From assembly GCF_008035925.1 (NCBI RefSeq), contig NZ_CP036264.1, forward strand, positions 395,774-459,773: a stretch of 64,000 nt of DNA, written 5' to 3'. The notes under the pieces are model-generated. The model was not told the DNA's origin. It was given only the letters and a program-made list of their open reading frames with translations, and searched no databases. Below, piece after piece: positions 2,461 to 3,390 of the stretch (position 1 is the first letter of the stretch; every line of letters starts with the position of its first letter). The DNA comes from Stieleria maiorica. GTDB lineage: Bacteria; Planctomycetota; Planctomycetia; Pirellulales; Pirellulaceae. A program made the position numbers and the translations under genes.

Positions 2461-3309
2461 GTGTTAGTTCTCTCTCGTCGCACCAAAGACAAAGTGTCGT
2501 TTCCGCAAGTCGGAGTCACGGTTCACTTTATCCGCGTCCAATCTGGACAGGTGAAAATCGGCATCGATGCACCGCGCAGCATCACCATCGTGCGCGATGA
2601 GGTCAGCGATGGGGACGCGATCGCCGAAATGGTCCGCCGCCAAATCGCACAACTGCCACAAGAAACCCGACACGGGATCCGCAACGAACTGCACGAGATC
2701 ACCGTCGGGCTGCACCTCTACCGCGAGCTGATCCGCGCCGGGATTAACGATGAAGCGGAAGAAACCTTCGATTCGCTCCAAGAATCACTGAAACGGCTCG
2801 ATTCCAACGAGGCCTTCCGACGGCCCGACGCACCGCCGGTCACCGACCCCGATCGCGAAACCATCGCCCTGATCGAAGACTCGGCCAACGAACGGCGGAT
2901 GCTGGCCGAAGTGCTGCAATTGAAAGGATACCAGGTCCTGGAATTCAGCAACGGCGCCAACGCGCTGCAGCATTTCGAAGACAATGATGCACCGGGGCTG
3001 GTCCTGGTGGACATGAACATGCCCGAGCTTGATGGTCATCAAACCGTCACCATGATGCGCCAGTCGGAACGCTTCCGCGATGTCCCCATCTTCGCCGTCA
3101 GCGGGACTTCGCCCGAAGAAAATGACCTCGTGATGGGGCGCCAAGGCGTCGATCGCTGGTTGCCAAAACCGCTCAGCCTGGAAACGCTGATGAACTCCAT
3201 CCGCCAAGCCATCGGGGCCCCCAAAGCCAAACAGCCCACTCAAGCACTTCGAAACGAAGCTCCATTATCGCTCAGTCGAGTCCCGTCCGTTGCCGCCGAT
3301 CTGGCGTAA
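2461..3309 (+). CDS. CsrA-receiver fusion protein: RNA-binding regulator with a phospho-acceptor domain
   Basis: 282 residues with a GTG start preceded by AAGGGG. Residues 1-~60 are a CsrA/RsmA domain: the start MLVLSRR, the GQVKIGIDAP strand and the Arg at 45 (equivalent to the RNA-contacting Arg44 of E. coli CsrA) are all present. Residues ~60-130 form a charged helical linker. Residues ~134-250 are a CheY-like receiver with the acidic pair E139/D140, phospho-acceptor D184 in LVDMNMP, switch residue S214 and conserved K236. CsrA alone is normally only about 60-75 residues and acts as an intertwined dimer that blocks or remodels mRNA leaders, so the fused receiver is unusual. It suggests that phosphorylation controls RNA binding or dimer geometry (inference). 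The gene lies 216 bp downstream of a hybrid kinase with a similar receiver. It has its own promoter and terminator. Confidence 0.9.
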   Translation: MLVLSRRTKDKVSFPQVGVTVHFIRVQSGQVKIGIDAPRSITIVRDEVSDGDAIAEMVRRQIAQLPQETRHGIRNELHEITVGLHLYRELIRAGINDEAEETFDSLQESLKRLDSNEAFRRPDAPPVTDPDRETIALIEDSANERRMLAEVLQLKGYQVLEFSNGANALQHFEDNDAPGLVLVDMNMPELDGHQTVTMMRQSERFRDVPIFAVSGTSPEENDLVMGRQGVDRWLPKPLSLETLMNSIRQAIGAPKAKQPTQALRNEAPLSLSRVPSVAADLA

Positions 3310-3353
3310 ATCGGAACCTCAGGGAAGAGGGAGTCTATACGGGATTTGATTTT

Positions 3354-3390
3354 GGCACGCCGTGTTAGGATATGCGGCGTGCCGTTTTCT
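3354..3390 (+). terminator. Rho-independent terminator after the CsrA-receiver gene
   Basis: A perfect 9-bp stem (ggcacgccg at 3354-3362 and cggcgtgcc at 3375-3383) closes a 12-nt loop and is followed by gttttct. It lies 45 bp after the stop codon, in the gap between convergent genes. On the other strand it is not followed by an equally clear T-run. Confidence 0.7.

Follow-up and report, generated by a model that had tools for sequence, protein, structure and literature searches.

A gene at the 5′ end of the window (the whole 64,000-nucleotide stretch of Stieleria maiorica DNA analysed here) joins an N-terminal CsrA domain to a receiver domain in a single chain, and lies 216 bases downstream of a gene encoding a hybrid histidine kinase. 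We read its product as a response regulator with a CsrA output, which would be phosphorylated by the adjacent kinase, and from the sequences at hand we give this reading a probability of about 75%. The features concerned are as follows.

1-2244, + strand: 3′ part of the gene for a CheB-CheR-PAS-PAS-HisKA-HATPase-receiver hybrid kinase of 1341 aa, whose start lies upstream of the window (complete gene, L009:13993-18018).
2461-3309, + strand: csrA-receiver fusion gene, 282 aa, GTG start (open reading frame and Pfam).
2461-2607, + strand: CsrA domain, residues 1-49 (Pfam PF02599 and alignment of relatives).
2659-2805, + strand: two-helix hairpin, DHp-like, residues 67-115 (AlphaFold2, HisKA matches in relatives, shuffled control and profile comparison).
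2863-3201, + strand: receiver domain, residues 135-247, with the phospho-acceptor D184 at 3010-3012 (Pfam PF00072 and Foldseek).
3353-3384, + strand: terminator-like hairpin of 13 pairs with a T-rich tail, after the stop codon of the fusion.

The 282 codons of the frame contain no stop, and both domains score well above their Pfam cut-offs, CsrA with an E-value of 1.2e-13 (51.2 bits against a cut-off of 27) and Response_reg with 1.2e-18 (67.8 bits against 30.2). The fusion claimed by the first-pass annotation is therefore borne out, and the stop or frameshift between the domains that it named as one way to undo the claim is absent. A frameshift or assembly artefact was ruled out as very unlikely, since full-length copies exist in other genomes, one at 91% identity in Rhodopirellula sp. 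JC639 and six more aligned copies at 45-55% identity, including those of Rhodopirellula baltica BR-MGV and Rubripirellula obstinata. The residues singled out in that annotation are likewise all where it placed them: the receiver has the E139/D140, D184, S214 and K236 expected of a response regulator, and the CsrA part has the RNA-contact arginine of its family, R45. The equivalent residue of E. coli CsrA, R44, is described as essential to RNA binding (PMC7366521). The NCBI equivalog model for the carbon storage regulator CsrA gives the window fusion 39.8 bits, below the cut-offs of 70.1 and 73, so that we speak of a homologous domain and not of a standard CsrA protein. The AlphaFold2 monomer has a mean pLDDT of 68.5 and models the CsrA part poorly (block pLDDT 41-64).

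The residues needed for both functions are conserved in the same chains. We aligned 62 fusions, namely the better-scoring hits in the family together with the copies from the same genome, filtered by a CsrA profile, with identical proteins merged and with frames shorter than 150 aa and one 126-aa CsrA without a receiver omitted. R6, A37, P38 and R45 are present in all 62, and D140, D184 and K236 each in 61, counts that lean high because of the choice of better-scoring hits and the CsrA filter. A wider set of 74 was obtained by adding 12 proteins (L100, L143 and L145 were left out); R45 is found in 71 of the 72 rows that retain a CsrA part, this part having been lost in the alignment for L134 and L137 although those proteins possess it. 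Some relatives appear, from their residues, to have lost one function: L018 is without D184, the receiver pocket of L142 is degraded, L029 (a fusion of the window clade, locus L054) has lost H71 and S214, and L144, the one exception for R45, also lacks P38. L144 (7755-8523, − strand) is a CsrA-hairpin-receiver protein adjoining a CheB-CheR-HK-REC gene, and may naturally be suspected of having lost RNA binding.

The layout, whose frequency the first-pass annotation could not judge, is common in the family and recurs in further families of the class. Within the family, 63 of 149 genomes match the window fusion at E ≤ 1e-15, some of them through the receiver alone, and in 53 the match runs from residue 1-2 to residue 239 or beyond (a hand count, in which eight genomes figure only through a match running over a stop codon). 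Across the phylum, 128 of 292 genomes match a profile of CsrA plus hairpin, mostly by CsrA alone (up to 15 candidates were scored in each genome, and matches were listed to an E-value of about 6e-14). Among the matches listed, at least 16 genomes reach model position 113 or beyond, of 125, with no internal stop (hand count); all 16 are labelled as one class, which we take to be Planctomycetia, and the 91 matching genomes from other classes contribute none. A scan of a named genome collection with patterns of the window clade gave 13 loci, seven of which are full-length relatives, and a tblastn search of plasmids with the CsrA-plus-hairpin part found nothing. Genomes of the class tend to have many CsrA matches each, with as many as 14 at E ≤ 1e-10 for one genome of the phylum search (G191). 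A CsrA-receiver form of 186-190 aa (frames of 190-194 aa), without room for the hairpin, was also seen at L052, L053 and L095 (the last judged by length alone), and this short form shares gene clusters with the long one.

The fusions are commonly found beside histidine kinases. In a scan of 46 fusion genes at 39 loci with flanking DNA (L145 left out; several loci with less than 5 kb of flank on one side), 40 genes have a histidine kinase at 5 kb or less, 35 of these at 1 kb or less, and 29 have CheB-CheR at 5 kb or less. The genes do not count as independent, since L093 and L051 stand for a single record and L135/L136 and L138/L139 are near-identical pairs. The scan found no kinase within 5 kb at the remaining six (L058, L059, L061, L062, L068 and L142). 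Among the standalone csrA loci of the S. maiorica genome, none of the five scored has a kinase within 5 kb (L011 and L016, of seven, were unscored because short frames were dropped). The arrangement is most regular in the window clade: at 11 of its 12 loci with flank (L009, L049-L053, L089, L091 and L093-L095) the fusion follows a co-oriented CheB-CheR-HK-REC gene at a frame-to-frame distance of 86-670 bases, and at L054, the remaining locus, the gene in that position encodes HK-REC and shows no CheB-CheR match. In other families kinase adjacency is often kept and orientation varies. The CheB-CheR-histidine kinase-receiver proteins that adjoin fusions in several families measure about 1200-1420 aa.

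This suggests that mRNA may be controlled directly through kinase signalling, and the hybrid kinase at 1-2244 is the likely partner of the window fusion. The same-strand order of the genes identified is second fusion, ETR1_N-PAS kinase, single receiver, CheB-CheR-PAS-kinase, hybrid kinase and window fusion. Between positions 2100 and 3500 we found no terminator-like site separating the hybrid kinase from the fusion and no promoter-like site; the single terminator-like site in this interval, the one listed above, compares with a mean of 1.9 in shuffled sequences, a count not above chance. No match to an Rfam family, whether of sponge RNAs or others, is above threshold within the window. Binding of the fusion to its own message was considered and dropped, one ANGGA and three GGA motifs in 2245-2490 being too few to argue from.

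Post-transcriptional control under two-component phosphorylation, as the first-pass annotation proposed, would thus be the natural reading, given RNA-contact and phospho-acceptor residues conserved in the same chains and kinases next door; that annotation was silent on the adjacent kinase as likely partner and on the hairpin described below. The upstream hybrid kinase would sense a signal and autophosphorylate, and the phosphoryl group would pass to D184 in the fusion, straight from the kinase or via the hairpin histidine. Two features make a dimeric fusion probable: CsrA proteins form dimers, and the hairpin looks like one half of the four-helix bundle of a DHp domain. In the phosphorylated state the receivers could then alter how the two RNA-binding faces of the CsrA pair are placed or exposed, with an effect on binding to presumed GGA-type sites of target mRNAs. 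That phosphorylation activates RNA binding, and does not inhibit it, is a guess.

The segment between the two domains had been described as a helical linker. Helical it is, with AlphaFold2 helices at residues 67-93 and 96-115 packed as an antiparallel hairpin, but the idea of a plain spacer was rejected, since the hairpin (about 67-115) is conserved and carries an H-box-like motif, H71-x-x-R74-N75-x-L77 (H71 codon, 2671-2673). In the 60 hairpins of the aligned set (62 fusions minus two without a hairpin), the consensus HxxRNxLN resembles the H-box of kinases, H is present in 46, and the least variable non-hydrophobic positions are R74 and H71, with entropies of 1.08 and 1.39 bits (1.87 for N75). 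Foldseek is uninformative on the hairpin, since the best 50 of its 1466 matches are all receiver-domain proteins except 9ckx_A (rmsd 14). A DHp-like origin of the hairpin is plausible, on the balance of the matches set out below, but unproven.

As for its function, the hairpin could well serve for dimerisation alone, as a bundle perhaps left over from a kinase DHp, with the kinase phosphorylating D184 directly; we rate this a little short of probable. Such a role agrees with the modelled helical hairpin, with the absence of the histidine from 15 of 72 rows of the wider set, most of which keep the receiver residues, and with the hairpin-less short form (L052, L053 and, by length, L095), although R74 and H71 are conserved beyond what a spacer seems to need.

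It is also possible, but in our judgement rather unlikely, that the hairpin itself carries out phosphotransfer, in a relay running from the kinase histidine to the kinase receiver aspartate, H71, D184 and finally CsrA, in the manner of Spo0B or ChpT. When the hairpins were scanned alone, HisKA was the family matching most of them (17/60, best E-value 9.3e-5, below the curated cut-off), with 0/60 for composition-matched shuffled controls and no other family above 5/60. Of the ten hairpins detailed, seven match HisKA, each with equal starts in protein and profile, which should put H on H if the HisKA histidine lies where we take it to be. Against these matches must be set that none of the ten passes the curated HisKA cut-off (best 22.8 bits versus 26.9), that the window hairpin on its own matches neither HisKA nor SPOB_a, and that other families also appear: Caudo_TAP, a phage tail-fibre assembly family, in five of the 60 (best E-value 1.1e-4, above its own cut-off in L045), SPOB_a in four (12.1 bits versus 28.1 in one detailed hairpin) and several TPR families in two to four each.

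When the hairpin profile was compared with that of 35 DHp sequences from the neighbouring kinases, the probability was 51.6% for the 60 rows and 95.4% for the 46 rows with H, with no column shuffle as good as the real alignment (0/500 and 0/200, respectively), but only 0.7% for the 14 rows without H. The signal comes mostly from the H-box, since masking the H column lowers the probability to 9.8% for the H rows and 5.7% for all rows. A circular-shift control was discarded as uninformative, local alignment recovering the same match. A PDB profile search with the hairpin returned no histidine kinase among the matches listed, the best being short pentatricopeptide-like stretches. In the wider set, the asparagine at +4 accompanies the histidine, being present in 49 of 57 rows with H versus one of 15 without (hand count; the rows are not independent, as the losses cluster in a few clades, with six parsimony changes). 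An acidic residue directly after H, however, occurs in just 15 of the 46 H rows, and the window protein has none there. The histidine itself is missing from the second fusion of the cluster, whose receiver is intact. Finally, the C-terminal domain of the hybrid kinase is a receiver. All 15 Hpt matches listed for the genome belong to frames of 463 aa or longer, so that none represents a free Hpt, and the vacant phosphotransfer step could be filled by the hairpin. Were this so, CsrA, phosphotransfer hairpin and receiver would together make up the terminal half of a phosphorelay that switches mRNA binding directly (from kinase receiver through H71 to D184), an output class expanded in one planctomycete class and with several paralogues in some genomes; we regard this extended proposal as doubtful.

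Of the ten CsrA domains in the genome (9,894,293 bases, single contig), three stand N-terminally in long proteins: the window fusion, the second fusion about 11 kb upstream of it, and a third copy at 790 kb (L018:4469-5209, − strand), in which CsrA is intact and a receiver-like part is without the phospho-acceptor aspartate, Pfam giving no receiver match. The other seven have no receiver. Known controls of CsrA are sponge RNAs and FliW. The sole FliW match of the genome is found some 450 bases upstream of a standalone csrA, and the fused form therefore looks like an additional route of control. That the fused CsrA no longer binds mRNA and acts instead as a dimerisation or docking module, for example by pairing with and controlling standalone CsrA, is improbable: it would fit the seven receiver-less copies, the RNA residues lost in L144 and an FP-x-LGI-like segment seen in the fused CsrAs and not in the seven standalone copies, but R6 and R45, kept in all 62 fusions of the first alignment, are not obviously required of a pure dimer module.

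Compared with known systems, the window fusion shares with CsrA/RsmA (PF02599) the domain family, the RNA-contact arginine and R6, and differs in being joined to a hairpin and a receiver, in its FP-x-LGI-like segment and in having the FliW match elsewhere in the genome. The ANTAR response regulators (AmiR, NasR and PdtaR) also have an RNA-binding output, but theirs is a different domain, C-terminal and acting by antitermination, whereas the CsrA of the fusion is N-terminal; PdtaR is presented as the regulator of a two-component pair in a review (PMC12471899). BarA/UvrY-CsrB/C-CsrA likewise links a two-component system to CsrA, the regulator there making RNAs that sequester CsrA, according to PMC4682653, whereas in the fusion receiver and CsrA are one molecule. 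For the hairpin, the comparison is with Spo0B and ChpT, whose helical hairpins form a dimeric four-helix bundle with a phosphate-shuttling histidine (for ChpT, PMC3433190), the counterpart in the window being putative. ChpT also has an atypical ATP-binding-fold domain that is missing from the fusion, and the window hairpin, unlike either protein, is fused to a receiver and CsrA, its phosphotransfer remaining putative.

Among the papers listed on CsrA, on receiver and output domains and on planctomycetes, none appears to describe a CsrA-receiver fusion, judging from titles and the starts of abstracts. Censuses of response-regulator output domains may count CsrA as a rare output. The description of E. 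coli CsrA as an orphan response regulator appears erroneous. It is given in one review (PMC12471899).

If the response-regulator reading is true, a phospho-switchable CsrA family would put mRNA under the direct action of a kinase, with no transcription step between, and would explain part of the multiplication of CsrA in these bacteria, where three of ten domains sit in long proteins in this genome. The fusion also makes a directly testable system, with one aspartate, one histidine and one RNA-contact arginine. Elsewhere in the window, a single open frame at 14541-38906 (+ strand) would encode a giant protein of 8121 aa.
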